Source of the DNA: an uncultured Kordia sp.
Lineage (GTDB): Bacteria; Bacteroidota; Bacteroidia; Flavobacteriales; Flavobacteriaceae
Length of the DNA stretch: 64,000 bases
NCBI RefSeq assembly: GCF_947496985.1
Contig: NZ_CANMEZ010000003.1
Span: forward strand, 310,001-374,000
Reading direction: 5' to 3'
In this document: positions 36,568 through 55,863 of the stretch, piece by piece
Numbering within the stretch: position 1 is the first letter of the stretch
How the letters are laid out: each line of letters opens with the position of its first letter
Position numbers and translations under genes: made by a program
The notes under the pieces: model-generated
Databases searched by the model: none
Told to the model about the DNA's origin: nothing
What the model saw: only the letters and a program-made list of their open reading frames with translations

Positions 36568-36696
36568 ATGCTGAATTAATTGTAAATTTGCAGGCTTTTA
36601 CCTTTTATAACTACTCAAATATAGTAGTGTTTAGAAGGTTTAAAAATACACAATATAAAATAGAAATCGCTACCGTTTTGGTAGAAAAGTACAGGA

Positions 36697-38034: not shown

Positions 38035-38112
38035 ATTGCTATTCAAGCTTAAAAATTGATTACTCAGCATCATTAGTACTTTACTGATTTTAAAACTAAA
38101 TTTTCATTATTT

Positions 38113-38142
38113 TGTCGAAGTTATCTTAAGTGTAATCGAAAG
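38113..38142. repeat. degenerate intergenic repeat fragment
   Basis: The 181-bp space between mtaB and the META gene includes TGTCGAAG and GTGTAATCGAAAG, resembling the cytosine/guanine-poor TCGAG...GTCGA intergenic palindromes common in Bacteroidota. It is too worn to call a family. Confidence 0.3.
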
Positions 38143-38215
38143 ATTGGTACGATTCATGTAATTATTATCCTATAATTACGAATAGATACCTATATTTAAC
38201 TATAAATAAGAAAAC

Positions 38216-39115: not shown

Positions 39116-39135
39116 TATATTCAAAATAGTCTATT

Positions 39136-39168
39136 AAAAAAGGGAACTGATAAAGTTCCCTTTTTTAA
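39136..39168. terminator. bidirectional intrinsic terminator
   Basis: AAAAAAGGGAACT and AGTTCCCTTTTTT form a 13-bp stem with a short loop between the convergent genes ending at 39115 and 39174. Confidence 0.85.
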
Positions 39169-39173
39169 TTCAA

Positions 39174-39470
39174 TTAGATTCGAACGCCAACTGGCAATAA
39201 ATCTTTATATTCTTTGTGCTTTCGTAAAAAACTAGCAATCTTGGGACTAGTTGGTACAACTCTTAAGTTGCGATCTTGAATAGTGTCTAAAACGGTTCTA
39301 ATAAAAGCATTCTTAAAATCTACTGTATCTAACGCTTCAGGTACAATTAATTTTGTTAAAAAAATCTTACGTTCTTGTAGTGAATACTCAATCTTAGCAA
39401 TTCCGTTATCAGTTTTGTATTCGAATTGTCTTAAAAATTCGTTATCGTTGATAACAATTTCATTATCCAT
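39174..39470 (-). CDS. YjdJ-type small GNAT acetyltransferase
   Basis: This is a 98-residue protein. AKIEYSLQERKIFLTKLIVP, then an ALDTVDFKNAFIRTVLDTIQ helix and LRVVPTSPKIASFLRKHKEY, match the short GCN5-related N-acetyltransferase family (YjdJ/N-acetyltransf_CG), in which the acetyl-CoA pyrophosphate loop is minimal. The substrate is unknown. It is a single gene, divergent from the hydrolase at 39585. Confidence 0.7.
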   Translation of the reverse strand: MDNEIVINDNEFLRQFEYKTDNGIAKIEYSLQERKIFLTKLIVPEALDTVDFKNAFIRTVLDTIQDRNLRVVPTSPKIASFLRKHKEYKDLLPVGVRI

Positions 39471-39584
39471 AGCAGTTTAATTTAAATTAATCTTTAAATG
39501 GTCTTTAGAAGAAAAAATCTTGGGTTAAGTTGCAAAGATACAAAATTTAGAGTAGATTTCCGAGTTTTTAGTAATACTATCTGT

Positions 39585-40247
39585 ATGAAACCGAATAAAA
39601 TACCTGTCTATTTCATGCCAGGAATGGCCGCGAATCCTTCAATATTTAAGTATATTCAGTTGCCAGAAGAAGAATATGAAATGTATTTTTTAGAGTGGTT
39701 TATTCCTGAAAAAGAAGAAACTTTAGCAGCATATGCATTGCGTATGACGCAAAAAATAGTACATGACAATATCATTTTAATAGGTGTTTCTTTCGGAGGA
39801 ATCTTAGTGCAGGAAATGGCACGTCATATCAATATTCGAAAATTATTTGTGGTTTCTAGTGTAAAAACAATGTTTGAATTGCCTAGAAGAATAAAATTTG
39901 CTAAAAAAACTAAAATCTACAAACTCTTACCTACAAGTTTAGTTAATAGTCTTGATGTTGTACGTAAATATGCTTTTGGCGATTTGGCAACTAAACGACT
40001 AGATTTGTATGAAGAATACTTATCTGTTCGTGATAAATACTACTTAGATTGGTCTATTGATCAAATTGTGAATTGGGAACAAGCAGAAGCGTTGCCAAAT
40101 ACTGTGCATATTCATGGAGAAAAAGATGGTGTATTTCCTAAGCAATATCTTTCCAACTATATTGAAATCAAAGGCGGAACGCACATTATGATTATCAATA
40201 AATACAAATGGTTCAATGAAAATCTTCCTAGATTAATAAAAGAATAA
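39585..40247 (+). CDS. alpha/beta hydrolase
   Basis: The frame opens at 39498, but the ATG at 39585 gives MKPNKIPVYFMPGMAANPSI, a natural beta1 start for the fold, so I use it (220 residues). IILIGVSFGGILVQEMARH (near residue 70) is the GxSxG nucleophile elbow, HIHGEKDGVFP (near 183) carries the acid, and GGTHIMII (near 199) the histidine. The Ser-Asp-His triad looks intact. The substrate is unknown; the family includes esterases and thioesterases. Confidence 0.8.
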   Translation: MKPNKIPVYFMPGMAANPSIFKYIQLPEEEYEMYFLEWFIPEKEETLAAYALRMTQKIVHDNIILIGVSFGGILVQEMARHINIRKLFVVSSVKTMFELPRRIKFAKKTKIYKLLPTSLVNSLDVVRKYAFGDLATKRLDLYEEYLSVRDKYYLDWSIDQIVNWEQAEALPNTVHIHGEKDGVFPKQYLSNYIEIKGGTHIMIINKYKWFNENLPRLIKE

Positions 40248-40672
40248 AAATCTTCTATATTGAAAAATGTAGAAGTGGTAATTTTCATAAATAACGAGTG
40301 TATTAGATAAGTTTAAGTGTGAAGTCTAATTCAAATGTTTTCTTTTCCAAAGTGTATTAAAGCGTTCTTATTAAAAATTTTTGAAGCCTTGGAGATAATT
40401 TACGGTTTTAGATTTTTAGCTAAAAATGCCTCTGGAAATGTTTACATTCATAAACTAAAAGTACCTTTTCTTTTGTTGTGTTTTCTCTGGATAAATAAAG
40501 AAAATCAGAATTATAAGAAATCTGTTTAAAATAAAGAAACTATCTTCATAAAATAACTTAAATTATAAAACTGTTTACTATTTTTGTAGTAATCTACCCA
40601 ACCTTTTTTTACAATCTCACCAAAAATAGTTAACTTAATAGTCGAGTAAGAAAATATTAAAAAAAGTATACA
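40248..40672. other. 425-bp AT-rich intergenic region
   Basis: I see no convincing gene. A 64-codon frame at 40335-40529 has no family resemblance and is treated as chance. TATTTTTG at 40579-40586 fits the -7 box of a Bacteroidota promoter for the transglycosylase, but no TTG lies at the expected distance. Confidence 0.5.
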
Positions 40673-41638
40673 ATGCGTAAAATTAAGAATGGATTTGCCT
40701 TTTTAGGATTAATATTCCTTGGAATATTATTAATGAATGCTGTACAACAAGACAAGGCATTAACTGCAGAAACAGAAAAAGAGACAATGGAAATGAAGTC
40801 TGTGACCAACCCTGAAGTGAAGGATGGAAACGATTATAATGTATATGCATTAGAAGTTCCTGCTATTTTAGATTTTGCAGGTGAAGAAGTTCCTTTGCAT
40901 TTGCCAGATATTAAAGAGCGCATGGATCGTGAATTGTTAGTAAATACATACTGGCAATCAAATGGTTTATTACTCTTCAAACGTGCGAATAAATATTTTC
41001 CAATCATAGAGCCAATCCTAGAAGAATATGGTGTGCCAAACGATTTTAAATACTTAGCTGTTATTGAAAGTGGTTTACAAAACGTAACATCTCCTGCAGG
41101 GGCAAGAGGTTTTTGGCAAATAATGAAAACTACGGGAAGAGAAAACGGATTAGAAATCAATTCTAATGTTGACGAACGTTACCATTTAGAAAAAGCAACA
41201 CATGTAGCATGTAAATACTTATTAGAAGCGAAAAAGAAGTTTGGAAACTGGACATCAGCAGCAGCAGCTTACAACGCAGGAAATGCAGGAATAGGGCGTC
41301 GTATGGAAAAACAACAGGTGGATTCATACTACGATTTATTATTAGGTCAAGAAACTGGTCGTTATTTATTTAGAGTAATTGCATTAAAAGAAATCTTTAC
41401 CAATGCGAAAAAATACGGTTTCAATTTTGACGAAAAACATTTATACACACACATTCCAACATATAAAGTGGAAGTAGACACTGCAGTTACCAACTTTGCT
41501 AGTTTTGCAAAAGGATTCGGGATCAATTACAAAATTTTAAAAATTCACAATCCTTGGTTGCGCGAAAACAAATTGAACAATAAATCGAGAAAAAAATACA
41601 AAATTGCAATTCCTGAAAAAGGATATTACACAAAATAA
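40673..41638 (+). CDS. MltD-type lytic transglycosylase with LysM-like tail
   Basis: This 321-residue protein has an N-terminal signal-anchor (GFAFLGLIFLGILLMNAVQQ). The central SLT domain has AVIESGLQN (near 130; the catalytic Glu), SPAGARGFWQIMK, then WTSAAAAYNAGNAGI (near 204). A C-terminal LysM-like segment (TAVTNFASFAKGFGINYKIL, IHNPWLRENKLN) should bind peptidoglycan. It cleaves murein glycan strands to 1,6-anhydro products. It is monocistronic, ended by the hairpin at 41662-41697. Confidence 0.9.
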   Translation: MRKIKNGFAFLGLIFLGILLMNAVQQDKALTAETEKETMEMKSVTNPEVKDGNDYNVYALEVPAILDFAGEEVPLHLPDIKERMDRELLVNTYWQSNGLLLFKRANKYFPIIEPILEEYGVPNDFKYLAVIESGLQNVTSPAGARGFWQIMKTTGRENGLEINSNVDERYHLEKATHVACKYLLEAKKKFGNWTSAAAAYNAGNAGIGRRMEKQQVDSYYDLLLGQETGRYLFRVIALKEIFTNAKKYGFNFDEKHLYTHIPTYKVEVDTAVTNFASFAKGFGINYKILKIHNPWLRENKLNNKSRKKYKIAIPEKGYYTK

Positions 41639-41661
41639 AAACAATTTATACTATTTAATAT

Positions 41662-41697
41662 AAAAGCTGTTTAGAAATCTCTAAACAGCTTTTTTTA
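41662..41697 (+). terminator. intrinsic terminator of the transglycosylase gene
   Basis: AAAAGCTGTTTAGA and TCTAAACAGCTTTT form a 14-bp stem with a 3-nt loop and a following T-run, isolating this gene from the ternary-system operon that begins at 41807. Confidence 0.9.
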
Positions 41698-41806
41698 GTT
41701 TTAATCTTTGGTTACTAGCAACTTCTATCGCTTACTATTGCTTCTTCCATATAATTTTCGTTCTTTTGAGTAATGTCTTCATAACGTTAGCATTTATCTT
41801 AAATTC

Positions 41807-42448
41807 TTGAATACAAAGAACAACATACTTCAAACCATCCATCATTTGCGCACTTCTGGGCAATTTGTGTTATACACAAACAAACCGAAAGTAAGTAACA
41901 GTGAATTGAATGATTTAGGTGATTTTTTAGAACAAGAATATGAAAATGAGGTGTTAAATTATCCGTGTGAAGCTCCAAAGTTTGATAGGGAAGCTGCCAT
42001 TTGGGGCGCAAAAATGATCTATTTTGGAGCACAATTTTTAGCACATCGACACGAGGAACCAAAAGATTTAAATCAATACTTTGAAATGATAAAAGGTGAG
42101 CTTACGCCAAACAGTTGCCTTTCGGCAGATTTGTCACTGAGATTTTTGCCGTTTATCACCAAAGAATTAGAAGCTATTGACTTTGATGATTGGTTAGTGA
42201 AAATTTTAAAATCACACTTACAAAAATTTTCATATTCAGCTATCGGACAAGGATTTGATTTGGAAATCAATCAAGAAGAACTCACAAAACTCTTTCAAAA
42301 CGAATGTTACAAAACACTCTTTATTGATCGAGTCATCGAAAAAAAAGACATCAGCCTTACAGAACACGCAATCATTCACGAAAACATCGCAATTCATTTA
42401 GGAGAACATAAAAATCACTTTTGGAGAGCGTTTGTTTCTGAAGTATAA
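41807..42448 (+). CDS. accessory protein of the MoxR-vWA ternary operon (first gene)
   Basis: This 213-residue soluble protein has a TTG start at 41807 that fits the frame start; no ATG precedes it. It is helical and rich in Leu/Glu (DLGDFLEQEYENEVLNYPCE, AAIWGAKMIYFGAQFLAHRH, LSLRFLPFITKELEAIDFDD). There is no recognisable domain, signal peptide or catalytic motif. Position as the first gene of the MoxR/vWA operon, with 4 bp to the ATPase start, makes it a candidate system-specific (bpX-type) subunit. The numbering of that family cannot be assigned from the sequence alone. Confidence 0.6.
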   Translation: MNTKNNILQTIHHLRTSGQFVLYTNKPKVSNSELNDLGDFLEQEYENEVLNYPCEAPKFDREAAIWGAKMIYFGAQFLAHRHEEPKDLNQYFEMIKGELTPNSCLSADLSLRFLPFITKELEAIDFDDWLVKILKSHLQKFSYSAIGQGFDLEINQEELTKLFQNECYKTLFIDRVIEKKDISLTEHAIIHENIAIHLGEHKNHFWRAFVSEV

Positions 42449-42452
42449 TATT

Positions 42453-43586
42453 ATGAACGAAACGAAAAAATTACGAACCATTCTTGAAGAAATCAAAAAC
42501 ATATTCGTTGGAAAAGATGAAGTGATTGATTTACTTGGGATTGGATTGTTGGCAAGAGAAAACGTATTCCTATTAGGACCTCCTGGAACGGCAAAAAGTG
42601 CCATAGTAAAGCAACTATCAAGTCATGTAATTGGAGGAATTAACTTTGATTATCTATTAACTCGATTCACGGAACCAAACGAAATATTCGGTCCATTAGA
42701 CATCCGTTTGCTAAAAGAAGGAGAACTAAAAACGAATACTGACGGAATGCTTCCAGAAGCTTCGTTGGTGTTTTTAGATGAAATATTTAATGCAAACTCT
42801 GCCATTCTGAATAGTTTATTAATGGCATTAAATGAAAAAATATTCAGAAGAGGAAAAGAGACGAAAAAATTACCAGCGTTAATGTTTATTAGCGCGAGTA
42901 ACTTATTGCCAGAAGATGAAGCGCTAGCGGCATTATTAGATCGTTTTTTAATACGATTAAAAGTAGATAATGTAAAACCTGATCGTTTGGAAGAAGTATT
43001 GCAAGCTGGTTGGAAGTTAGAACGAAATGAAGAAACGGAGCGTACACTTATATCTCCCGAAGAAATTAAAGGGTTACAACACAAAGTAAAAGAAGTAGAT
43101 TTATCATCCATCAGAAACTCTTATATTGAATTGATTCACAGTTTAAGAAACACAGGTATAGAAGTTTCTGATAGACGAGCCGTAAAAATGCAAAACTTAG
43201 TGGCGGCAAGCGCAATGTTATGCGATCGTACAGAAGCAATTCTTTCTGATTTATGGGTGTTAAAATATATTTGGAATACAGAAGAGCAAATAGAAACCTT
43301 ACAAGGAACGGTAAATGCATTGATAGAAAAAGAAGAAACGGCGGAGCGTTCGCATCCACAAGCGTTTTTTAACAAAGCACCAAATCCAGAAGAGTTGATG
43401 AATGAAGTGTCCAACCTAAAACAAAAACTATCAAATGAAGGTTTGTCATTGCAAGAATTAAACGTTATCAAAGATAAACTTCGTTACTTGCAAAACCGTA
43501 CAGATTGGATCAAAGAGCAACAGAAAAAACAATACATAAACAATGAAATAGATCAGTTGTGGAAAGACATCTTGCACAAGGCGTAA
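42453..43586 (+). CDS. RavA-like MoxR AAA+ ATPase
   Basis: I start at the ATG at 42453 (377 residues), 4 bp after the previous stop, because the upstream frame would overlap that gene. FLLGPPGTAKSAIV (Walker A, residues 42-49), ASLVFLDEIFNANSAIL (Walker B), LMFISASNLLPEDEALAALL (sensor 1) and DRFLIRLKV form a AAA+ core. The S-N-x-LPE-x-A form of sensor 1 is the RavA style of the MoxR clade. The C-terminal 100 residues are a helical extension. It is the motor of the system, with a vWA partner encoded two genes later. The next gene overlaps its end by 28 bp. Confidence 0.9.
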   Translation: MNETKKLRTILEEIKNIFVGKDEVIDLLGIGLLARENVFLLGPPGTAKSAIVKQLSSHVIGGINFDYLLTRFTEPNEIFGPLDIRLLKEGELKTNTDGMLPEASLVFLDEIFNANSAILNSLLMALNEKIFRRGKETKKLPALMFISASNLLPEDEALAALLDRFLIRLKVDNVKPDRLEEVLQAGWKLERNEETERTLISPEEIKGLQHKVKEVDLSSIRNSYIELIHSLRNTGIEVSDRRAVKMQNLVAASAMLCDRTEAILSDLWVLKYIWNTEEQIETLQGTVNALIEKEETAERSHPQAFFNKAPNPEELMNEVSNLKQKLSNEGLSLQELNVIKDKLRYLQNRTDWIKEQQKKQYINNEIDQLWKDILHKA

Positions 43587-44284
43587 CAGAATATTGGTTA
43601 CGATTACCTTCAAAATACAAAGAAAAACTTTCACAAATTCGCGTGTGGAAAACACTGCGTATGGCAACTGATGAAAATGATGTTTGGGTTCGTGGAATTG
43701 AACCAAGTAAATTGCATAGTCCAGAAATACGTAGCATTCCATTCAAAAAAATATATTTTCAAAAAAACAATGCATTATTTCTCCTTGGCGGGAATTTACC
43801 AGAAGAACGACTCAAAACGTCATTACTTTGGTCACCAATAAACAAAGCATTGCCTGTAGAAATACCATCCTATAATTTCAATTATTTTGGTGTTAATGAA
43901 ACCATTGATTTCAAATTGATTCTTTCTAGCGTAGAGCATGAATCAAAAGCATTATTAGTCGATTTTAAAATCTTAGATACATATATTCCAAAAGCGCCTG
44001 CAATTCGATTGCAATCCATAAAATGGACTATTGTCAATAAAAAAGCATTTCTTATAGGAACTCCTTTATTACCAATTCCTGGGAAAAGTTATTGGCTACA
44101 TCAACATTTCTTGATTCCTACAGGATACGATTTTGAACATCCAGAGTTGAGTAATTTCTATCATAAAAATTTACAAACAACACAAGAAGAATATATTGTA
44201 TTACAACCAAATAATACATATTATAAAATAACAACCGAGCAACTAAAACCTCTTACAATTAGCGGATACCGACTATCACAATAG
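43559..44284 (+). CDS. accessory protein of the MoxR-vWA ternary operon (third gene)
   Basis: This 241-residue soluble protein starts 28 bp inside the ATPase gene. It reads as beta-rich: VTEYWLRLPSKYKEKLSQIR, DVWVRGIEPSKLHSPEIRSI, NALFLLGGNLPEERLKTSLL and SIKWTIVNKKAFLIGTPLLP. I see no catalytic motif or signal peptide. Tight coupling to the MoxR and vWA genes indicates a bpX-like structural subunit; the family was not identified by search. Confidence 0.6.
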   Translation: MERHLAQGVTEYWLRLPSKYKEKLSQIRVWKTLRMATDENDVWVRGIEPSKLHSPEIRSIPFKKIYFQKNNALFLLGGNLPEERLKTSLLWSPINKALPVEIPSYNFNYFGVNETIDFKLILSSVEHESKALLVDFKILDTYIPKAPAIRLQSIKWTIVNKKAFLIGTPLLPIPGKSYWLHQHFLIPTGYDFEHPELSNFYHKNLQTTQEEYIVLQPNNTYYKITTEQLKPLTISGYRLSQ

Positions 44285-44285
44285 C

Positions 44286-46664
44286 ATGAATATTACACAA
44301 CGAAAAGCTATATACTATTTTCAATCCTATACAGATTATTTCTGGCAATGGGAAACTGATTATATGTTTACTAGTGATGTTATTGAAAACGCGTATGACT
44401 ATCATGGAGGTATTAATTGCATAAGTATTCCAGATGGAATCACAGTTGCGTACAAAGAACAAATTGAAGAAATACTGAAAGCAATTTCTTCTAATGATTT
44501 GCCTCCTTTTGGAGCATTAATATTAACTTTTTTAGCAACAAATTCTGGAGAAGTTTCAAAAGCAATTGACGAACAGTTTAAAAAGATTCAAAAAACATTT
44601 GAAGACGATTTATTATTCAAACATGTCTATTTTGAAGAAGCTCAACGTTTTTTAGAAACTCTAATAACACTTCCGAAAAAATATAAAAAAGGAAAAAACA
44701 GGATAGATTTATTTATCTTTTTATTTCAAAAAGTAAAGCATGGTTTATCTAACAAATATGCAGATGCAATTGTAAGCTGTATACAAAATAAAGCGTTTGA
44801 ATTAAACCAATGTAGTAGGCAAACGGAAATTACAATGTCTGCACTAAGCAAAGATTTTAATTCCTTGGCTTTATTACACGAACGTTTTCCAACAGTAAAC
44901 GCGTTATTAACTGCTTGGGAAAAAATACTTCCAGTTCCAGTAGATCCAGAAGATACTGAAATAGAAACCATAAGTGAACAACCAGATTTAATTCAACAGC
45001 TCATTGAAGATCCAAAGACGTTCTTTATGGGAAGTCTTATCAAACGAATATGGTCAGGAATTCAATTACCAATGCACTACGTGCATCCGGGAGAAATGCC
45101 GCTTGGAGGAATTTCAGATGTTACAAACAAAGGAAAGTTTGATAACTTGTTGACCTCAGAATTTGCCAATGATGATCTTATTTTTCTGCATAGAATTGCT
45201 AACAAGGAAGCTTTATTTATACGTCGTGAAACAACACCAGAAGAAGATTTACGCACACGTATCTTTTTAATAGATACAACCATAAAAAATTGGGGAACAC
45301 CTAAAATACTATCATTTGCAACGGCTTTTGCTTTTATGCATCATCCCAAAAATGAAATGACCTTTCAGTCATATGCAATTGGTGAAAAATGTGCCAAACT
45401 AGCATTTGATGAAAAAATAGACATCATAGAAGGTTTACAAGTTACATCTCCCATATTAGATGCGTCAAGCGCGATTATACAATTCATTGACACCTGTGAA
45501 GAAGAAAACATAGAAGTTACCTTATTCACGTCTCCAAAAACCTTGGAGCATGCAGCAATGCAACGTATTTTTAACCTACATCATGATAAATTTGGTGGTG
45601 TAATAACAGCAGATACAGAAGGAAATATTGATGTGTATAAACTTAAAAATGGTGCCAAACGATTGGTAAAACACATTCAATTACCATTACAGGAATTATG
45701 GGCGCATCCACCAAATACACGAAGGAGAAAGCTTCTAAAGACACAAAAAGAAGCTCCAATTATTGAATATCCGTTGTTGTATGGTTATCCAAATGGTTAT
45801 TTAACACATTTCTTTTCAGTCGATACAGGATATGTACTGCGAAAACGTGGCGCGGTGTATAGAATGAATGGATATGACAAAGGATTTGATCTTGTGAGAA
45901 CAGATGTTCGTTTTGTGTCAGGTATGAAAAAACCACTGAATGCTACAATTTTTGATGATGAATTAATCACTATTTCTTGTAGTGCATCTGACAAAATAAT
46001 TGTGAAAAGCGAATCTCAAACAAAGACGTTTACAGGAGATTATGATGTACAATACCGATCATCTATCAAAAACGCATTAGTACATCAAAACGAGTTGTAT
46101 TTCATCACAAGAAAATATTACAGTGATGATCCAGTATATCTAAAAATAGATTTTAAACACAAATTTATTGACGAAATTACAACACCTTCTAGTGAATTAA
46201 AAAAAGATTATGATACATGTATAAGTAACTATTTCCCATATTTCCCAGGCTCTATATTCACTAAAATAAAATCAATTGCAGTTACTAATAGTTTAGAACT
46301 TATCTTTAATAACATACATAGATTGCATATTTCAGACGATTATTTATTATTTCAATTAAACAGAGAAGAAGAAGGGTATCTATCTAATGCAGAATACATT
46401 GATAGGACAGAATTCCGATTTTCTAATGGAAATAAAATTGCTATAGATAAAAAAGGAATGCTAACATTTTTAAGTTCAGATCCTGCGGTAAAAACATTTT
46501 ACTTAGTTTCTTACATTGAAATAAGCTTGGCAATGGCAACTGATACAGAATTTGCTGGAAACGAATATTTCTTACCTGAAAATTCACAATTAAAGGTAAT
46601 CAGTGTAAAAGAGTTCAAACGAAAACACATCGATCCATTCATTGACAATTGTATAATTATATGA
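44286..46664 (+). CDS. vWA-like and beta-propeller fusion protein of the ternary operon
   Basis: This 792-residue protein has no signal peptide. Residues about 1-230 are helical. A region from about 320 to 460 resembles a von Willebrand A domain: RIFLIDTTIKNWGTPKILSF replaces the MIDAS DxSxS with DTTIK, and IEVTLFTSPKTLEHAAMQRI fits a later strand. The C-terminal 300 residues are strand-rich with repeats such as YPNGYLTHFFSVDTGYVLRK, consistent with a beta-propeller. With the MoxR ATPase two genes earlier it recalls the MoxR-vWA-beta-propeller ternary systems. The vWA metal site looks degenerate. It abuts the previous gene by 1 bp and its stop overlaps the next start (ATGA). Confidence 0.7.
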   Translation: MNITQRKAIYYFQSYTDYFWQWETDYMFTSDVIENAYDYHGGINCISIPDGITVAYKEQIEEILKAISSNDLPPFGALILTFLATNSGEVSKAIDEQFKKIQKTFEDDLLFKHVYFEEAQRFLETLITLPKKYKKGKNRIDLFIFLFQKVKHGLSNKYADAIVSCIQNKAFELNQCSRQTEITMSALSKDFNSLALLHERFPTVNALLTAWEKILPVPVDPEDTEIETISEQPDLIQQLIEDPKTFFMGSLIKRIWSGIQLPMHYVHPGEMPLGGISDVTNKGKFDNLLTSEFANDDLIFLHRIANKEALFIRRETTPEEDLRTRIFLIDTTIKNWGTPKILSFATAFAFMHHPKNEMTFQSYAIGEKCAKLAFDEKIDIIEGLQVTSPILDASSAIIQFIDTCEEENIEVTLFTSPKTLEHAAMQRIFNLHHDKFGGVITADTEGNIDVYKLKNGAKRLVKHIQLPLQELWAHPPNTRRRKLLKTQKEAPIIEYPLLYGYPNGYLTHFFSVDTGYVLRKRGAVYRMNGYDKGFDLVRTDVRFVSGMKKPLNATIFDDELITISCSASDKIIVKSESQTKTFTGDYDVQYRSSIKNALVHQNELYFITRKYYSDDPVYLKIDFKHKFIDEITTPSSELKKDYDTCISNYFPYFPGSIFTKIKSIAVTNSLELIFNNIHRLHISDDYLLFQLNREEEGYLSNAEYIDRTEFRFSNGNKIAIDKKGMLTFLSSDPAVKTFYLVSYIEISLAMATDTEFAGNEYFLPENSQLKVISVKEFKRKHIDPFIDNCIII

Positions 46665-48064
46665 AATTAGCGCTGAAATTTATCGATACTAATCCGTATC
46701 CACGTTGTGGGATTTTCATCAAGCATGCATCTCCCAAAGTATGGTTGCAGGAAGTGAAGCGCATGCATCTCAAGTTATCAGATTGTACAGCTTATGCATG
46801 TCCAAGTTTAGAAGCTAATGGTATTTCGGGTGTGTTATTAATTCTAAAAACGGCTCAAAAAAATATAGATATCGGTACTAACATAACGATACAAAAAGCA
46901 TATAAAAATTTCTTTATTCCAGAAAATACAACATTAAATATGGCGTTAACGGATGAAGAATTTTCAAACCTACTAAATGGAACACCACATTTTTTTCATT
47001 ATGAATTTGGCATGATAGAACTCAACGAAGAGTTAAATTGGTCAACAATCATACAAAATCCAGAAGAACAATTTCCAACGATAGCAATGCCCGCAAAAGG
47101 GGTTAAAATTCCTAAAAGAGTAACTTCATTTAGTATCGAAATTGAAGAAGAGGAAGCAGAAGAAGCATTCGAAAATCCTTTTGGAGAAAAAGAAGAAGAT
47201 TCAGAAGATGTGCCTTTTGATATGAAAAAAGTATTGGAAGGAAACAATGCTGAGGTTGCTAAGTATTTAAGCTATTTAGAAAAAAATCCTGATGCTGCAC
47301 TCAAAATGGCGATTCCATTAGATATGATGGGAACTTCAAGAGGAAAAGCATTTGCAAAATACAAATTTAAAAGTGGTTTTTTTGAATCATTAGGTTTTGG
47401 TGATTCGGACGATAGTGGAAAGAATTATTTACGAGTTGTACTCGCAGCTTTGGCAATAGTAGCTCTTTTTTGGATTGGATATGAAGTGTTATACGCTGTT
47501 AAAAAAGATACACCAGGAGTTGAGTATGTACATCCAAAATTTGAGGAAATTGAACCTACAAATGATACTGAGGTCACTTTTGAAGACGATGAAAACCTTA
47601 CTGTAGATCTTTCGGAAACGAGTCATCAGCAAGAAGAACAAATAAAACCAAAACCAGAAAATAATATCATTCAAAATATATTATTAATCATAGCTATATT
47701 GGTATTATTACTTTTAATTCTGTATTTATTCATGTATCGAAAACAAAAGATACAAGCAAAGCCATTAGAAAAAAAACATTCTTGGTTAGATTTACCAGAC
47801 GAAAGTGAATTTTTTAATATTGAAGATGAGGAAAATACAAAAAAGCAAAAAGGAAATTTCTATTTTGGAGGAAATGAAATAAGTGTTCAAAATAAAATAA
47901 TCCTTACCATTATTATTGTAGGATTATTAATGTATCTTTTCTATCCAATTTTAAATCAAGATGGATTTCCTGCAGTTTTTGGTGTTATAGCTGCATTTAT
48001 AGTATTACGTATGTTATATACATTACTAAATAGAAACAGAAAATTTGACGAAGAAGATGCGTAA
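46661..48064 (+). CDS. membrane-anchored accessory protein of the ternary operon (fifth gene)
   Basis: I use the ATG at 46661, which overlaps the previous stop as ATGA. It gives 467 residues. The first 140 residues are a soluble domain (MKLALKFIDTNPYPRCGIFI and VLLILKTAQKNIDIGTNITI). An acidic linker with many Glu (IEIEEEEAEEAF, EKEEDSEDVPFD) follows. About four hydrophobic segments lie in the second half: near 262-280, 342-362, 412-430 and 437-455. It may tether the complex to the inner membrane. Function unknown, and no known family is claimed. Confidence 0.65.
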   Translation: MKLALKFIDTNPYPRCGIFIKHASPKVWLQEVKRMHLKLSDCTAYACPSLEANGISGVLLILKTAQKNIDIGTNITIQKAYKNFFIPENTTLNMALTDEEFSNLLNGTPHFFHYEFGMIELNEELNWSTIIQNPEEQFPTIAMPAKGVKIPKRVTSFSIEIEEEEAEEAFENPFGEKEEDSEDVPFDMKKVLEGNNAEVAKYLSYLEKNPDAALKMAIPLDMMGTSRGKAFAKYKFKSGFFESLGFGDSDDSGKNYLRVVLAALAIVALFWIGYEVLYAVKKDTPGVEYVHPKFEEIEPTNDTEVTFEDDENLTVDLSETSHQQEEQIKPKPENNIIQNILLIIAILVLLLLILYLFMYRKQKIQAKPLEKKHSWLDLPDESEFFNIEDEENTKKQKGNFYFGGNEISVQNKIILTIIIVGLLMYLFYPILNQDGFPAVFGVIAAFIVLRMLYTLLNRNRKFDEEDA

Positions 48065-49046
48065 AGAAAGTAGATTTGAAAGTAAACTTCTGTATTTCAT
48101 CATCGTGTTGTTGATGTTGAAATTGTTATACGTCATATTTGATACAATTTTGAATGGAGATATTGGAAGTTTTTTTCTAGCGCTTTTTATTATTGTGATT
48201 TTATTTTTAGGCGTAGGATTGTTTATAGGTTCTATGTTTAAATCTTCTCAGGAATATAGTGGAGGAGGAGGCTCAACAACTGTTGGAGACACACAGTTTC
48301 AACAGTTAATGAATCGTTATGAAAAATTATGTGATGATTTCATTGAGAAAAAGCAATTCAAAAAAGCAGCGTATATTCAACTAAAACTACTTCGCAATCC
48401 ATACAGAGCTGCCTATATTTTAGATGAAGGAAATTTGCACAACGATGCAGCATTAATCTATCTGAAAAAATGTAATGACAAGCAAAATGCGGCAGAATGT
48501 TATGAAAAAGCACGTTCGTACAAAAAAGCAATTAAACTGTTTAAAGAATTAGAAGAACACGAATCAGTTGGTGATATTTATACCAAAATAAAAGATACCA
48601 AAAATGCACATCACCATTACAGAATTGTAGCAGATGATTATACTAAAAATGATCAATATGTAAAAGCAGCGTTACTATATCGTAAAAAAATGGACGATAA
48701 AGATTCAGCGAGTAAACTGCTAGTCAAGGGTTGGCGAGAAAACAAAGATGCGATTAATTGTTTAAACAATCACTTAGTACATTTTGACAGTAGAAAAGCA
48801 CTCGAAAAAGAAATTGATACTTTCTACAAAAACGAAGTGCATCTAGGAAACAATCTTAATTTTCTAAAAGTTTTAAAAACGGAATTCAAAAAAGATATCG
48901 CACCAAAACAAAACATTCAAAATATTGCTTATGAGTTGGTATCTAGGCATAATCAAAACTCAGAAATTTTGGCAAACCTACATTATTTCGTACAAGAGGA
49001 TTCGCAAATTGTCTCAGATGTCATTCGTCATCGTATCAAAAAATAA
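48057..49046 (+). CDS. TPR-like membrane protein of the ternary operon (sixth gene)
   Basis: I start at the ATG at 48057 (329 residues), overlapping the previous gene by 8 bp; a TTG at 48045 would add four residues. Two membrane segments (about 14-32 and 38-58) and a glycine linker (EYSGGGGSTTVGDTQFQ) lead to a helical-repeat domain with alternating patterns: QFKKAAYIQLKLLRNPYRAA, KKCNDKQNAAECYEKARSYK and YVKAALLYRKKMDDKDSASK. These resemble TPR-type protein-binding repeats. It is the last gene of the operon and probably a membrane scaffold. Confidence 0.65.
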   Translation: MRKESRFESKLLYFIIVLLMLKLLYVIFDTILNGDIGSFFLALFIIVILFLGVGLFIGSMFKSSQEYSGGGGSTTVGDTQFQQLMNRYEKLCDDFIEKKQFKKAAYIQLKLLRNPYRAAYILDEGNLHNDAALIYLKKCNDKQNAAECYEKARSYKKAIKLFKELEEHESVGDIYTKIKDTKNAHHHYRIVADDYTKNDQYVKAALLYRKKMDDKDSASKLLVKGWRENKDAINCLNNHLVHFDSRKALEKEIDTFYKNEVHLGNNLNFLKVLKTEFKKDIAPKQNIQNIAYELVSRHNQNSEILANLHYFVQEDSQIVSDVIRHRIKK

Positions 49047-49107
49047 AAAAATGTCACAAATGTAATTTTGAAATGTTATATAAGTATAAACGTTTAATAT
49101 AGAGCGC

Positions 49108-50073
49108 ATGAAAAATATCCTATACTTCTGTTTTCTTATTCTAATCTTTAGTTGTTCACAAGATGATTCATCCGAAACTGTAAGTCCGATGTTATGGAGT
49201 GAATTAAACAGTCCTACATCAAAAGGACTTTCAGATATAAAATTCATCAATGAAAATTTTGGTGTTATCTGTGGTTCATTAAACGCATTATTTAAAACAG
49301 AAGATGGCGGAGAAACTTGGGAAGAATTAGATGTTGGGATTCCTACATCTTTAAATACTGTGTTTATTCTGAATGAAAACGAATTTCTTACTTCAAGAGT
49401 TGGCTTACATAAAACAACCGATGGAGGAATAACATTTAACGAAATAGGTGGTTTAGAGAATTATTCTAATACTATTTTCCATATTCATTTCTTTACAGAA
49501 CAGAATGGAATCATTGTAAAAGGTGGAACTGTGCTCAAAACTAATGATGGTGGTGCAAATTGGGTTGTAGCATATTCAAATACTCAATATGCTTCTGAAT
49601 TAGTAGTAACAACAAATGAAACTATATATCTTGCAGGTGGCACTACCTATGACAATGTGAGTTTAGGATCACTTTATAAATCTACGGATAATGGTATAAA
49701 TTGGCAACAATTAGAATTACCAGAGTCTATACGAAACGTAGAAATATCTGCTACTGAATTTGTCAATGAAAATTATGGGTTCATAGGAATGTTTGATCGT
49801 AATATTTATAAAACAACTGACGGCGGAGCAAGCTGGGCACATATAGCCAGTGGTTTTACAGATGGTTTTGCAGACATACATTTTATAAATGAACAAGAAG
49901 GCTATTTATTAAGTCGAAATAAAATATATAAAACTATAAATGGTGGTGTGTCATGGAATCTTGAGTACGAGCATGAAGATATAAACATATACCTACGCTC
50001 AATAACTTCTACTTCTAACGGGAAACTATATGCTGTTGGGAAGAATGGTTTAATACTTAAAAGAGACGAATAA
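49108..50073 (+). CDS. YCF48/BNR-like propeller lipoprotein
   Basis: This 321-residue protein has a lipobox (LILIFSCSQD, Cys near residue 13). Repeats with T-x-D-GG-x-xW (FKTEDGGETWEEL, HKTTDGGITFNEI, KTNDGGANWVVAY, YKTTDGGASWAHI, YKTINGGVSWNLE) and INEQEGYLLSRN mark a BNR/YCF48 seven-bladed propeller. It is 61 bp from the ternary operon; co-transcription is possible but not shown. It is a relative of the lipoprotein at 16382, with stronger Asp-box repeats. Confidence 0.82.
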   Translation: MKNILYFCFLILIFSCSQDDSSETVSPMLWSELNSPTSKGLSDIKFINENFGVICGSLNALFKTEDGGETWEELDVGIPTSLNTVFILNENEFLTSRVGLHKTTDGGITFNEIGGLENYSNTIFHIHFFTEQNGIIVKGGTVLKTNDGGANWVVAYSNTQYASELVVTTNETIYLAGGTTYDNVSLGSLYKSTDNGINWQQLELPESIRNVEISATEFVNENYGFIGMFDRNIYKTTDGGASWAHIASGFTDGFADIHFINEQEGYLLSRNKIYKTINGGVSWNLEYEHEDINIYLRSITSTSNGKLYAVGKNGLILKRDE

Positions 50074-50116
50074 TAGCATCAAGAAATAATTAAAATATTT
50101 TTCTAAAAACAGATTG

Positions 50117-50138
50117 GTCGTTATTTATAAATAGCGAC
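50117..50138 (+). terminator. candidate terminator after the YCF48 gene
   Basis: GTCGTTATTT pairs with AAATAGCGAC, with one G:U wobble. A T-run follows about 10 nt further on, so it is an imperfect terminator. Confidence 0.4.
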
Positions 50139-50206
50139 AAGCTTCCTTTTTTAAACTTTAAAATCATAATTAGATTTGAAAATACACAAATCAATATCAA
50201 ATAATT

Positions 50207-50410
50207 ATGAAAAAAAAGAACCTTAAAGGATTATCCTTAAATAAGAAATCAGTTTCAAACTTAAATGCAGAAAATATAGCAGGAGGTGGATTCACTGCTG
50301 GTTGTACAGATGGCTGTACACCTTTCCAAACACAATGGAATTGCACGCGTATAGGAGGAAACTGTACAGCAGATTGTGACAATGGAAATTCAAATCTTTG
50401 CCCAATATAA
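50207..50410 (+). CDS. GG-leader RiPP precursor, class I lanthipeptide-like
   Basis: A 67-residue peptide. Residues 1-27 form a leader: KKKNLKGLSLNKKSVSNLN and then NIAGGG, matching the L.LNK..vS.LN.e...I.GG leader of the Bacteroidota class I lanthipeptide-like precursors. The remaining core (about 40 residues) contains six cysteines and many Thr/Ser: FTAGCTDGCTPFQTQWNC and GGNCTADCDNGNSNLCP. These can be dehydrated and cyclised to thioether rings, or form disulfides. No LanB, LanC or transporter gene lies in the window, so the modifying enzymes must be elsewhere if they exist. Confidence 0.75.
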   Translation: MKKKNLKGLSLNKKSVSNLNAENIAGGGFTAGCTDGCTPFQTQWNCTRIGGNCTADCDNGNSNLCPI

Positions 50411-50486
50411 TAACCAATCAATATGTTTTAAATTGTTTTCAGTAAATGATGTCATAACAATAACTGAAGCAAATTTTTGGTAAAAA

Positions 50487-50514
50487 AAAGCGACTTATTA
50501 ATAAGTCGCTTTTC
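50487..50514. terminator. bidirectional palindromic terminator
   Basis: AAAAGCGACTTATT and its complement form a loop-poor palindrome between the convergent RiPP-precursor gene and the 50535 gene, with a T-run on one side. Confidence 0.75.
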
Positions 50515-50534
50515 TAATTCTATTCTTTTTCATA

Positions 50535-51101
50535 TTATCGTCTTCGCATATTTTGGCGATTGCCATAATGTTGTTTAGGAGCGTTTGAAGCGCGTTTCAT
50601 CTGCTGTTCCATCATCTTTATTTGCTCAGTTAGCATTCCTCGCTTATCAAGTGTCTTAGCTTCTTTCATTAAACTTTTAGCTTCAACCTTTCTATTTTTT
50701 TGAGATGCAATACCAGCTAAGGTCATTTTTACCATTGCCATATCATGATCCATACTCAAACCAAGTTTCTCTGCTTTACGCAAATACTTTTCTGCTTGTG
50801 TTAAATTATTTTGAGAGGCCATAATTCCATGTAAATAATTATAATATCCTAGTTGCTTCTTTGTCAAAGCAGTTTCAGGATTTTTAATTTTAGATAACAA
50901 GCGTTTTGTACCATCAAAATCTTGTTTACGAAGTTTTAAAAATGATAATAAAATAAACTCATTCTTAAAATATAGTAACACAAAGATCGCAGCTAATAGA
51001 ATCAGGAAAATTCCATTACCTATATAGCTTTCATAAAACTGATAAATTGCGAAGGCAAAAATTGCTGCCGCTATAATTAATTTGATATTTTTGTTGAACA
51101 T
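50535..51101 (-). CDS. membrane protein with helical-repeat region (TPR-like)
   Basis: This 188-residue protein has two hydrophobic segments near the N-terminus (LIIAAAIFAFAIYQFYES and GIFLILLAAIFVLLYF). The rest is helical with repeated A/L positions: TKKQLGYYNYLHGIMASQNN, LTQAEKYLRKAEKLGLSMDH and EAKSLMKEAKTLDKRGMLTE. This reads as two or three degenerate TPRs, with a basic C-terminus (YGNRQNMRRR). The N-terminal pair resembles a DUF2892-type segment. It is divergent from the L34 gene and has no assigned function. Confidence 0.7.
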   Translation of the reverse strand: MFNKNIKLIIAAAIFAFAIYQFYESYIGNGIFLILLAAIFVLLYFKNEFILLSFLKLRKQDFDGTKRLLSKIKNPETALTKKQLGYYNYLHGIMASQNNLTQAEKYLRKAEKLGLSMDHDMAMVKMTLAGIASQKNRKVEAKSLMKEAKTLDKRGMLTEQIKMMEQQMKRASNAPKQHYGNRQNMRRR

Positions 51102-51168
51102 AAAACAGTATATATTAATCGAGTTTGCAAATGTATAAAAAACAATCGAAAATATTTTTTAAAATCTG

Positions 51169-51199
51169 TTTGTGAAAGTAAAAACTCTTTGTATATTTG
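51169..51199 (+). promoter_or_regulatory. Bacteroidota-type promoter of rpmH
   Basis: TTTG at 51169-51172 and TATATTTG at 51192-51199 are 19 bp apart, an excellent match to the -33/-7 consensus. The transcript would start just downstream, leaving a leader of about 65 nt before L34. Confidence 0.8.
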
Positions 51200-51270
51200 C
51201 GCCGCACTTTTAGAAAGGAATCTCGCGTGCAATTACAATTATTTTCAAGAGAATTAAAGATATTTAAATA

Positions 51271-51429
51271 ATGAAAAGAACATTTCAACCATCGAAAAGA
51301 AAAAGAAGAAACAAGCACGGTTTCAGAGAAAGAATGGCTTCTGTAAACGGTAGAAAAGTGCTAGCTCGTAGAAGAGCAAAAGGAAGAAAGAAAATTTCTG
51401 TGTCATCTGAATTAAGACATAAGAAATAA
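51271..51429 (+). CDS. rpmH: 50S ribosomal protein L34
   Basis: A 52-residue protein. [20 protein letters not shown] and [20 protein letters not shown] are diagnostic of L34. It is a small, extremely basic large-subunit protein. It has its own promoter (51169-51199) and terminator (51451-51484). The rpmH-carB neighbourhood here differs from the dnaA-rpmH-rnpA arrangement of many bacteria and fits Flavobacteriia. Confidence 0.98.
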
Positions 51430-51450
51430 TGATATAGATAGTATATAGAT

Positions 51451-51484
51451 AAGGTGTTGTTTTTTTTAAGCAACACCTTTTTTG
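51451..51484 (+). terminator. intrinsic terminator of rpmH
   Basis: AAGGTGTTG and CAACACCTT enclose a loop of 11 nt, followed by seven T residues. Confidence 0.85.
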
Positions 51485-51533
51485 TACCCAAACGTTTTTT
51501 TATTTTTACGCAACACAACACACACACAAACTA

Positions 51534-54389
51534 ATGCCAAAAAGAGAAGACTTAAAATCAATTTTAATTATCGGATCAGGACCAATTGTTATTGGTCAAG
51601 CTTGTGAATTTGACTACTCAGGATCGCAAGCATTACGTTCACTAAGAGAAGATGGAATCGAAACAATTCTTATCAACTCAAACCCAGCAACCATCATGAC
51701 CGATCCTACAATGGCGGATCATGTATACCTAAAACCATTAACAACAAAATCTATTATTGAAGTTCTAAAAGAACATCCTCAAATTGATGCCGTTTTACCA
51801 ACTATGGGAGGACAAACTGCATTAAACTTATGTATTGAAGCAGATGAAAAAGGAATTTGGGAAGATTTTGATATAAAACTTATTGGAGTTGATATTGATG
51901 CGATCAATATTACAGAAGACCGTGAAAAGTTTAGAGAGTTAATGGGGGAAATTGGTGTTGGAATGGCGCCACAAGCCACAGCAACATCATTCTTAAAAGG
52001 AAAAGAAATTGCACAAGAATTTGGTTTTCCATTAGTAATTAGAGCATCGTATACACTAGGAGGAGCAGGAGCTTCAATTGTATATGATCCAGAAGATTTT
52101 GACGAATTATTACGTCGCGGATTAGAAGCTTCACCTATTCATGAAGTAATGATCGATAAAGCGATGATGGGTTGGAAAGAATACGAATTAGAATTATTAC
52201 GTGATAAAAATGACAACGTAGTAATTATCTGTTCTATTGAAAATATGGACCCAATGGGAATCCATACAGGAGATTCTATCACAGTAGCTCCAGCAATGAC
52301 TTTATCAGATCGTACATATCAGAAAATGCGTGATATGTCTATCAAAATGATGCGTAGTATTGGTGACTTTGAAGGTGGATGTAATGTTCAGTTTGCTGTA
52401 AGTCCTGACGATAAAGAAGATATTATCGCTATTGAGATCAATCCACGTGTATCACGTTCTTCAGCATTGGCAAGTAAAGCAACAGGATATCCGATTGCAA
52501 AAATTGCTGCTAAATTGGCTATCGGATACTCGTTAGACGAATTAGACAATCAAATTACAAAATCAACATCAGCATTATTTGAACCAACACTAGATTACGT
52601 AATCGTAAAAATTCCACGTTGGAACTTTGATAAATTTGAAGGTTCAGATCGAGAATTAGGATTACAAATGAAAGCGGTAGGAGAAGTAATGGGAATTGGA
52701 CGTTCATTCCAAGAAGCCCTACATAAAGCTACGCAATCACTTGAAATTAAGCGTAATGGTTTAGGAGCTGATGGGAAAGGATATAAAAATTACGATACAA
52801 TTATCAGTAAGCTTAGACATGCTTCTTGGGATAGAGTATTTGTAATATATGATGCCATTCAGATGGGAATTCCACTGAGTAGAATTCACGAAATTACAAA
52901 AATTGACATGTGGTTCTTACGTCAATATGAAGAATTACACCAGTTAGAAAAAGAAATCGCTTCGCATAATAAAATTGATAGTATTTCAAGAGATTTATTA
53001 TTAGAAGCTAAACAAAAAGGATTCGCAGATCGACAAATAGCACATATGTTAGGATGTTGGGAAAGTGAAGTATACAAAAAACGTGAAGACTTAGGAATTA
53101 AGCGTGTATACAAGTTAGTAGATACCTGTGCAGCAGAATTTACAGCAAAAACACCTTATTACTACTCTACGTTTGAAGCAGAAATTGAAACTGCTGATGG
53201 AAAACGTTTTGTACACAATGAAAGTGTAGTATCAGACAAAAAGAAAATAGTTGTATTAGGTTCTGGTCCAAATAGAATTGGACAAGGAATTGAATTTGAT
53301 TACTGTTGTGTGCATGGTGTATTAGCTGCGGCTGAATGTGGATACGAAACTATCATGATCAACTGTAACCCAGAAACGGTTTCTACCGATTTCGATACGG
53401 CTGATAAATTATACTTCGAACCAGTTTTCTGGGAACACATTTACGACATCATTCAACATGAGAAACCAGAAGGTGTTATTGTTCAATTAGGAGGACAAAC
53501 CGCGTTGAAATTGGCTGAAAAGCTAGATCGTCACGGAATCAAAATATTAGGAACAACTTATCAATCGTTAGATTTAGCGGAAGATAGAGGAAGTTTCTCT
53601 ACATTATTAAAAGAAAACAATATTCCTTATCCAGAATTTGGAGTGGCTGAGAATGCTGATGAGGCCTTGGCTTTAGCAGATGAGTTAGACTTCCCAATCT
53701 TGGTTCGTCCGTCATATGTACTTGGAGGACAAGGAATGAAAATTGTGATTAACAAGCAAGAATTGGAAGAAACTGTAGTAGACTTACTGCGTAAAATTCC
53801 AAATAATAAATTGTTGCTAGATCATTATTTAGATGGAGCAATAGAAGCAGAAGCGGATGCAATTTGTGACGGTGAAAATGTATACATCATTGGAATTATG
53901 GAACATATTGAGCCTTGCGGAATTCACTCTGGAGATTCAAACGCAACCTTGCCACCATTCAACTTAGGTGAGTTTGTGATGCAACAAATCAAAGATCATA
54001 CAAAAAAGATTGCTTTAGCATTAAACACTGTCGGATTAATTAACATTCAGTTTGCTATCAAAGACGATATGGTATACATCATTGAAGCCAATCCAAGAGC
54101 TTCTCGTACGGTTCCTTTCATCGCGAAAGCGTACAAAGAGCCATATGTAAACTATGCGACAAAAGTAATGTTAGGAGAGAAGAAGGTGACGGACTTCAAT
54201 TTTAATCCGCAATTAGAAGGATATGCCATCAAACAACCAGTATTCTCATTCAACAAATTCCCGAATGTAAATAAACGCTTAGGACCAGAAATGAAGAGTA
54301 CAGGAGAAAGCATCTTATTCATAGATAGCTTAAAAGATGACGAATTCTATAACTTATATTCAAGAAGAAAAATGTATTTAAGTAAATAA
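51534..54389 (+). CDS. carB: carbamoyl-phosphate synthase large subunit
   Basis: This 951-residue protein has two homologous ATP-grasp halves. The first holds GSGPIVIGQACEFDYSGSQA (near 13), RASYTLGGAGASIVYD and IEINPRVSRSSALASKATGY; the second GSGPNRIGQGIEFDYCCVHG (near 580), RPSYVLGGQGMKIVIN and IIEANPRASRTVPFIAKAYK. It makes carbamoyl phosphate from bicarbonate, glutamine-derived ammonia and ATP, for pyrimidines and arginine. It ends soon after GEKKVTDFNF at about 950, so the C-terminal MGS-like allosteric domain of the 1070-residue enterobacterial form is missing, as in other Bacteroidota I recall. carA is not adjacent. Confidence 0.97.
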   Translation: MPKREDLKSILIIGSGPIVIGQACEFDYSGSQALRSLREDGIETILINSNPATIMTDPTMADHVYLKPLTTKSIIEVLKEHPQIDAVLPTMGGQTALNLCIEADEKGIWEDFDIKLIGVDIDAINITEDREKFRELMGEIGVGMAPQATATSFLKGKEIAQEFGFPLVIRASYTLGGAGASIVYDPEDFDELLRRGLEASPIHEVMIDKAMMGWKEYELELLRDKNDNVVIICSIENMDPMGIHTGDSITVAPAMTLSDRTYQKMRDMSIKMMRSIGDFEGGCNVQFAVSPDDKEDIIAIEINPRVSRSSALASKATGYPIAKIAAKLAIGYSLDELDNQITKSTSALFEPTLDYVIVKIPRWNFDKFEGSDRELGLQMKAVGEVMGIGRSFQEALHKATQSLEIKRNGLGADGKGYKNYDTIISKLRHASWDRVFVIYDAIQMGIPLSRIHEITKIDMWFLRQYEELHQLEKEIASHNKIDSISRDLLLEAKQKGFADRQIAHMLGCWESEVYKKREDLGIKRVYKLVDTCAAEFTAKTPYYYSTFEAEIETADGKRFVHNESVVSDKKKIVVLGSGPNRIGQGIEFDYCCVHGVLAAAECGYETIMINCNPETVSTDFDTADKLYFEPVFWEHIYDIIQHEKPEGVIVQLGGQTALKLAEKLDRHGIKILGTTYQSLDLAEDRGSFSTLLKENNIPYPEFGVAENADEALALADELDFPILVRPSYVLGGQGMKIVINKQELEETVVDLLRKIPNNKLLLDHYLDGAIEAEADAICDGENVYIIGIMEHIEPCGIHSGDSNATLPPFNLGEFVMQQIKDHTKKIALALNTVGLINIQFAIKDDMVYIIEANPRASRTVPFIAKAYKEPYVNYATKVMLGEKKVTDFNFNPQLEGYAIKQPVFSFNKFPNVNKRLGPEMKSTGESILFIDSLKDDEFYNLYSRRKMYLSK

Positions 54390-55821: not shown

Positions 55822-55863
55822 ACCTAGTAAATTGATCCTTAATTATAAGTAGTAGTTAAAAAT

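Follow-up and report, generated by a model that had tools for sequence, protein, structure and literature searches.

A bpX-type MoxR-vWA-beta-propeller cassette in Kordia and the RNA-repair and tRNA genes around its relatives

The MoxR-vWA-beta-propeller ternary systems, or bpX systems, were defined as subsystem 4 of the vWA-MoxR systems (Kaur, Burroughs, Iyer and Aravind 2020, eLife 9:e52696, PMC7159879)—the only paper returned by a literature search for bpX systems by name. As set out in its section on these systems, many of the vWA proteins carry an N-terminal helical bpX0 domain and a C-terminal strand-rich bpX1 domain (~62%), and the vWA component has a C-terminal beta-propeller of about four blades. 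The same section describes a third component that crosses the membrane; its globular N-terminus varies, and its C-terminus typically carries TPR and propeller regions. It also reports additional conserved partners, a predicted role in biological conflict and, for several Bacteroidetes, an L12 insertion in the vWA protein, and gives neither a function nor a conventional effector. RavA and ViaA provide a second point of reference: in the account of PMC9489729, both are found at the inner membrane and bind phospholipids, and altered lipid composition has been linked to them. Here, we analyse a six-gene cassette of the bpX type in a stretch of 64,000 nucleotides from an uncultured Kordia sp. (assembly GCF_947496985.1, contig NZ_CANMEZ010000003.1, positions 310,001 to 374,000), referred to below, at its full length, as the window. 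The system itself had already been published; what is new is the context of the cassette in some relatives, where tRNA arrays and RNA-repair genes surround it.

A conserved six-gene cassette with a split membrane component

By our reading of the open reading frames (ORFs), the six genes all lie on the plus strand and span positions 41807-49046 of the window. An earlier reading of the DNA by sequence alone (the first-pass annotation) had proposed a tightly packed operon, and its junctions—a 4-bp gap, a 28-bp overlap, a 1-bp gap, an ATGA overlap and an 8-bp overlap—were reproduced. The cassette opens with bpX4 (41807..42448; 213 residues, TTG start; PF19920, E 4e-70), followed by the AAA+ ATPase bpMoxR (42453..43586; 377 residues, ATG start, with the ORF opening at 42432), bpX2 (43559..44284; 241 residues, GTG start; PF19918, E 3.2e-79), a protein of 792 residues (44286..46664; ATG start) predicted to combine bpX0, a divergent vWA domain, a beta-propeller and bpX1, the membrane protein bpX3 (46661..48064; 467 residues, ATG start; PF19919, E 1.7e-38) and a TPR-like membrane protein (48057..49046; 329 residues, ATG start). 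Hydropathy predicts four transmembrane (TM) segments in the fifth protein, and two in the sixth; none is predicted in the first four. Pfam thus assigns five of the six products to bpX4, bpMoxR, bpX2, bpX0 plus bpX1 (in one protein) and bpX3, and the bpX-family matches that the first-pass annotation had proposed to look for among the accessory proteins were found. These assignments make it near certain that the six genes belong to the published bpX family.

The ATPase scored 335.4 bits against PF20030 (E 1e-100; cut-off 27), a profile that also matches ordinary MoxR proteins, far more weakly. Its P-loop, GPPGTAKS, fits the GXXXTAKS variant frequent in bpX systems. The description of the protein as RavA-like also held, since its closest solved structures are those of RavA (E 2.5e-44); the best NCBIfam match is likewise RavA (PRK13531, 192.1 bits), far below the equivalog cut-off of 681. 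In the 792-residue protein, bpX0 (PF19915, residues 51-209, E 2e-30) and bpX1 (PF19917, residues 708-789, E 8.6e-22) both exceed their cut-offs, and no Pfam match, to vWA or propeller families included, was found between them. The vWA and propeller folds of the proposed fusion remain predictions. The closest named relatives of this protein come from Kordia. The sequence DTTIKNWG sits where the vWA metal site is expected, and the motif D-x-x-x-x-NWG is kept in 46 of 49 loci, with one NWG variant. Comparison of this protein with a Ro60-type protein gave no profile-profile match (both profiles being shallow), and its profile retrieved nothing useful among solved structures. The sixth protein matched no family above cut-off; its best TPR-type match was weak (PF23774, 19.5 bits; cut-off 33). 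In the fifth, bpX3 is followed by the predicted TM segments—a globular N-terminus joined to a membrane-spanning part—and a Glu-rich linker is visible in the sequence. The defence models of PADLOC-DB 2.0.0 gave only weak matches; the AAA part had the strongest (E 1.2e-4).

To follow the cassette beyond the window, we read 49 of them in genomes and loci that carry our own G and L numbers: all ten of Kordia, 18 of Flavobacterium, 13 of the genus g13, four of g373, one each of g393 and g381, and those of G560 and G517. We use the label Flavobacterium for the genus of G289, which groups with Flavobacterium piscinae in the tree; g13, the main genus of the G210 family, is presumably Chryseobacterium. 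The Flavobacterium cassettes comprise all 16 bpX2-positive members of a 249-genome set plus G285 and G202, and those of g13, g373, g393 and g381 represent 19 of the 51 bpX2-positive genomes of the G210 family. One cassette (G265) is cut by a contig end, leaving 48 complete, among which neither the order nor the strand of the six coding segments varies; the six-gene arrangement is therefore not a matter of chance, and the recurrent order that the first-pass annotation had suggested seeking in other Bacteroidota is present. As a marker of the system, bpMoxR alone was rejected, with its profile matching ordinary MoxR proteins in 292 of 296 genomes of the phylum, and bpX2 and bpX3 were used for this reason. 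bpX2 was found in 10/11 Kordia genomes, 16/249 Flavobacterium genomes and 51/197 genomes of the G210 family, and bpX3 in 5/397 genomes of the window's family. Loci in G137, G178 and G185 were left out of these counts: their bpMoxR matches had E values of 1e-47 to 1e-53, and the other five genes had no match (tblastn, 1e-3). In a phage collection, 20 bpMoxR-like records were found, none spanning 80% of the query.

The cassette is conserved at its engine and variable in its outer parts. Across the nine other Kordia loci, median identity to the window was 91.0% for bpMoxR, 70.9% for bpX4, 66.4% for bpX2, 56.2% for the vWA-propeller protein, 49.8% for bpX3-TM and 55.2% for TPR-TM, with flanking medians of 96.1% for carB (n=7), 83.5% for a transglycosylase (n=6) and 60.8% for a META lipoprotein (n=5). 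Against the 39 non-Kordia cassettes, bpMoxR is still 63.5-69.1% identical. A combined bpMoxR and bpX2 tree largely follows taxonomy, with G916 and G871 outside the main Flavobacterium group. Three genes of the G916 cassette (L195-L196) look broken, being shortened, and this Flavobacterium cassette groups with those of the other family, which suggests transfer and decay. In a Kordia metagenome copy (G303), the gene of the 792-residue protein is interrupted.

The first-pass annotation had singled out this version of the system for its two membrane subunits. Two TM proteins are indeed encoded here, but the distinction was overstated: in 18 of the 48 complete loci (16 of Flavobacterium, plus G560 and G517) the bpX3 and TPR parts form one ORF of 568-632 residues, and they are separate in Kordia, g13, g373, g393, g381, G289 and the broken G916. 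None of the 48 complete cassettes lacks the TPR-like membrane protein. What looked like two membrane subunits is thus a single bpX3-TM-TPR component, split in the window, and this simplifies models of the complex. Hydropathy was read for five fused forms, including L044, which is not among the 48: four have two TM segments and that of G517 none. A juxtamembrane motif follows bpX3—PLDMMGTSRGK in the window and PLDxxGTSRG in most loci; the pattern matches 39 of 48, eight of the remaining nine are close variants, and the reading for G888 ended after two residues.

A five-gene version of the cassette was also observed on a plasmid of Hymenobacter yonginensis (L227:15338-23171), ~8 kb from a site-specific integrase gene. 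Its bpMoxR is 52% identical to that of the window, and residues 395-629 of its third component (959 residues) match the window's TPR protein. The last 330 residues of this component have no counterpart in the sixth protein of the window, and neither bpX3 (by blastp) nor the juxtamembrane motif was detected in it.

Genomic surroundings of the cassettes

For the neighbourhood survey, all ORFs around the cassettes were clustered and the recurrent families annotated. In Flavobacterium and g13, which belong to different taxonomic families, the common neighbours are largely nucleic-acid enzymes: an RNase T-type exonuclease, a metallophosphoesterase, DUF434+DUF5616, Band-7 proteins, RLIG1-like and Rnl2-type RNA ligases, WGR proteins, a protein with a SWIM match just below cut-off, TROVE/Ro60 proteins and a family that we take to be TatD. 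Common neighbours without a nucleic-acid role include a short-chain dehydrogenase and proteins that matched nothing in Pfam. In the fetched flanks of the 18 Flavobacterium and 13 g13 cassettes, respectively, we found the exonuclease in 15 and 10, the metallophosphoesterase in 8 and 9, DUF434+DUF5616 in 6 and 7, Band-7 in 11 and 3, the RLIG1-like ligase in 11 and 1, the Rnl2-type ligase in 1 and 5, and TROVE in 2 and 3. A cyclic-phosphate receiver (cREC; 0 and 8) was found in g13 only, and an RNaseH-like gene (0 and 12) also appeared at one g373 locus. RNA-ligase or end-processing genes stand beside the cassette in most Flavobacterium and g13 relatives. Two observations concern individual members of these islands: six of the 18 Flavobacterium islands, e.g., at L185:9067-10581, have a reverse transcriptase (PF00078) adjoining WGR and SWIM-like genes, and a Flavo-1 RNA (RF01705, L198:10204-10281) directly adjoins the TROVE/Ro60 gene of G976, of which it could be an RNA partner.

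The neighbour probes came from the loci themselves, so checks on whole genomes were made. The exonuclease was found in 48 of 249 Flavobacterium genomes—15 of the 16 with the cassette versus 33 of the 233 without it (Fisher p 3.5e-11, not corrected for kinship; the cassette and exonuclease searches used the same arguments and are taken to cover the same 249 genomes)—and it lies within 12 kb of the cassette in 13 of the 15 genomes holding both. Among 50 genomes searched for TROVE, 49 of them cassette-bearing, 20 have the gene; it shares the cassette's contig in 16 genomes and lies within 35 kb of the cassette in 13 of those.

Transfer RNA genes add a second layer to this context. Using ARAGORN, we found 3-16 tRNA genes downstream of the cassette in all 12 g13 loci with a downstream flank, the first starting 0.7-6.2 kb after the cassette and all 122 lying on its strand. 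In Flavobacterium, at least one tRNA gene occurs within 10 kb of the cassette in 14 of 18 loci, and every tRNA gene found within that distance, in Flavobacterium and g13 alike, has the orientation of its cassette. Many specificities are mixed within the arrays, which in most g13 loci are followed by the RNaseH-like gene. The array at L226:6825-9101, with matching places in 12 g13 loci, is an example; for some other tRNA calls in the islands the anticodon was not readable.

A hairpin element occurs inside these arrays and nowhere else in the scan, which covered loci L060 onward and the window. Its 20 copies are spread over ten loci (nine of g13 and one of g373), and its loop core is conserved around GCAGAAG (e.g., L226:7547-7620 and L226:7665-7738). 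RNAalifold, applied to 18 of the 20 copies, gave 13 pairs, two of them changed on both sides, and no Rfam match at the gathering threshold was obtained in the six sources scanned. The element is possibly a new small RNA.

A ribosomal L7/L12 C-terminal domain lies within the vWA-propeller protein in 18 of 48 cassettes, as judged by a small model of our own; Pfam gave an L7/L12 match in three of nine such proteins scanned. Taken with the neighbouring tRNA and RNA-repair genes, the domain suggests a client tied to translation or RNA repair. Neither the ten Kordia proteins, of which one is interrupted, nor the twelve g13 proteins gave a match to it, so it does not track the tRNA arrays.

In Kordia the cassette occupies a site bordered, outside the system, by a lytic transglycosylase gene upstream (40673..41638, plus strand; PF01464) and, downstream, by a gene on the plus strand at 51534..54389 that we take to be carB, the name resting on the sequence. 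The window's carB has tblastn matches of 92-97% in those Kordia loci whose flank reaches it. Several loci hold the cassette between these two genes, and others have extra genes at the borders. The cassette-less Kordia genome G298 keeps the flanks around a 1.1-kb gap at the site, the transglycosylase gene staying near carB. A terminator-like inverted repeat with a T run (41662..41696, plus strand), read directly from the sequence, separates the transglycosylase gene from the cassette and suggests that the cassette begins its own transcript. A scan with a Bacteroidota-type promoter pattern gave matches at or below chance level and none at the cassette, and an Rfam scan of positions 36000-56000 found no match. 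Between the TPR gene and a reverse-strand gene lies a BNR/YCF48-like repeat gene (49108-50073; PF14870), for which no tblastn match was found in the eight other Kordia loci compared. Additionally, four Kordia loci (L060, L062, L065 and L066) carry extra genes upstream of bpX4, encoding proteins of ~770-970 residues and small secreted-looking proteins; the larger ones, similar versions of which recur, look by eye like TPR histidine kinases.

A possible role in the response to RNA damage

We infer, at a probability of roughly one half, that the bpX cassette encodes a membrane-anchored AAA+ remodelling machine serving a tRNA- or RNA-damage response. By analogy with MoxR-vWA precedents, and in keeping with the family, a ring ATPase and a peptide-binding co-chaperone may remodel a membrane client. 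The MoxR ring and the vWA-propeller co-chaperone would sit on the bpX3/TPR platform at its cytoplasmic face and draw on ATP to dismantle a bound client or assembly. For much of the family this job would belong to the response to damaged tRNA or other RNA, in which the machine might free ribonucleoprotein or repair assemblies close to the membrane, or reset them; the RNA ligase, end-processing, exonuclease and TROVE/Band-7 proteins would mend or clear RNA, and the clustered tRNA genes could replace the damaged molecules or act as decoys. Of the membrane-tethered conflict or quality-control machine put forward by the first-pass annotation, the tethering agrees with the predicted TM segments and the conflict or quality-control part stays conjectural. 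The context in relatives points to RNA damage or RNA quality control, a narrower reading than the published conflict role and compatible with it. More tentatively, bpX machines in general might be the ATP-driven, membrane-docked arm of a tRNA-damage response, a pairing kept in unlinked form in Kordia, with the L7/L12 domain suggesting contact with the translation apparatus.

Several observations weigh against this role in RNA damage, beginning with the origin of the neighbour probes noted above. No exonuclease match was obtained in seven of the genomes with a cassette (G560, G517, G1031, G1052, G1064, G953 and G992), nor in G855, so the enzyme is not obligatory; in G871 and G916 it lies far from the cassette. 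Conversely, of ten exonuclease islands lacking the cassette, nine matched none of the six genes and one (G891) matched the TPR gene alone, so island and cassette are separable modules; five of these ten islands carry at least three tRNA genes. Moreover, most linked cassettes fall in a single clade, itself weakly supported (0.48), and the linkage may therefore go back to one event. As an observation in its own right, the G891 locus (L234-L235), where the TPR-gene match stands beside the exonuclease and RNA ligases, looks like the loss of a cassette from an RNA-repair island.

A further point against it comes from Kordia: no RNA-repair family was found beside any of its ten cassettes, the window's included (flanks of ~5-8 kb were read on each side except for the window, and one of the ten has almost no flank), and no tRNA gene was found in the 64-kb window or in the other, short Kordia flanks. 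On the supporting side, all ten cassette-bearing Kordia genomes have the exonuclease (in G301 just the more distant copy), and the sole cassette-less one gave no match; this correlation turns on a single negative genome (p 0.09). The window genome carries, on another contig (G000:C1:80-100 kb), two exonucleases, DUF434+DUF5616, two more island families and two tRNA genes, and no match to the RNA-ligase family PF09414 or to TROVE was found in it. Six other Kordia genomes have an Rnl2-type ligase within ~20 kb on the exonuclease contig, three of them with TROVE as well. Since the related RNA genes lie elsewhere in these genomes, any coupling in Kordia, the window genome included, would at best be in trans.

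Among the alternatives, the general counter-invader conflict system proposed in PMC7159879 survives best, although we regard it as somewhat unlikely. According to the part of the article on these systems, MoxR-vWA would set a threshold and bpX3/TPR would act at the membrane as sensor or effector, sacrificing or protecting the cell. RNA repair would then be at most a neighbour. Its patchy spread (bpX3 in few genomes of the window's family, bpX2 in few of Flavobacterium), the empty site in G298 and the plasmid copy near an integrase gene in Hymenobacter all fit such a system. So does the fast divergence of the outer subunits, bpX3-TM in particular, relative to bpMoxR and carB in Kordia; divergence alone is no proof, however, as the flanking META lipoprotein is nearly as divergent. 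Further points against it are the weakness of the PADLOC matches, the failure to find an effector domain, and the presence of the cassette in all but one of the Kordia genomes, at the same site in several.

Because island and cassette are separable and their linkage possibly stems from one event, we also retain, as an unlikely explanation, that the cassette and the RNA-repair and tRNA genes merely share integration hot spots and have no common function. Transfer RNA genes are classic insertion sites, island content is shuffled, islands also occur without the cassette, and linkage is missing in Kordia, G560, G517, G871, G953, G992 and three of the four g373 loci; a single origin of the linkage would fit as well. 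What speaks against mere sharing of hot spots is that the tRNA genes near Flavobacterium and g13 cassettes all follow the cassette strand, that the arrays mix specificities in a manner unlike single integration-site tRNAs, that the same RNA-repair families recur in two taxonomic families, and that exonuclease and cassette co-vary in Kordia without being neighbours, albeit with one negative genome.

Finally, an envelope chaperone of the RavA-ViaA type, tuning membrane lipids or assembling a membrane protein complex under stress, is improbable: RavA is the closest solved relative and best NCBIfam match of bpMoxR, and the cassette has a TM platform, but the score falls below the RavA cut-off and the RNA-repair and tRNA islands would be left unexplained. 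RavA-ViaA is not known to have a counterpart of the TM platform or of the bpX proteins. For the RNA-damage role, the repeated link to tRNA arrays and RNA-repair genes, together with a marker that accompanies the cassette even where the two are not neighbours, turns an unexplained AAA+ conflict machine into the subject of a specific hypothesis.

Relation to known systems

Bacterial RNA-repair islands combining RNA ligase, TROVE/Ro60 and SPFH/Band-7 genes were reportedly described by Burroughs and Aravind in 2016. The gene families beside the Flavobacterium and g13 cassettes are of this type; the window cassette lies outside any such island. Linkage to RNA repair or tRNA genes is not named in the section of PMC7159879 on bpX systems, and in its main text the words "RNA repair" occur in a reference title only. 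The RavA-ViaA pair of E. coli resembles the window in supplying the closest solved AAA+ relative and, as described in PMC9489729, in being a MoxR-vWA pair at the inner membrane; it differs in that the window ATPase fails the RavA cut-off and that the bpX proteins and an integral-membrane platform are additional here. The closest match remains the bpX systems as characterised in the relevant section of PMC7159879, with which the window's cassette shares five of six protein families, the TAKS P-loop, a predicted vWA protein with bpX0 at one end and bpX1 at the other, a membrane-spanning component whose N-terminus is globular, and further conserved partners of helical and alpha+beta type. Unlike in those systems, the third component consists of two proteins here, with no propeller found on it, and the L12 insertion, not found in the Kordia proteins, is present in their relatives.

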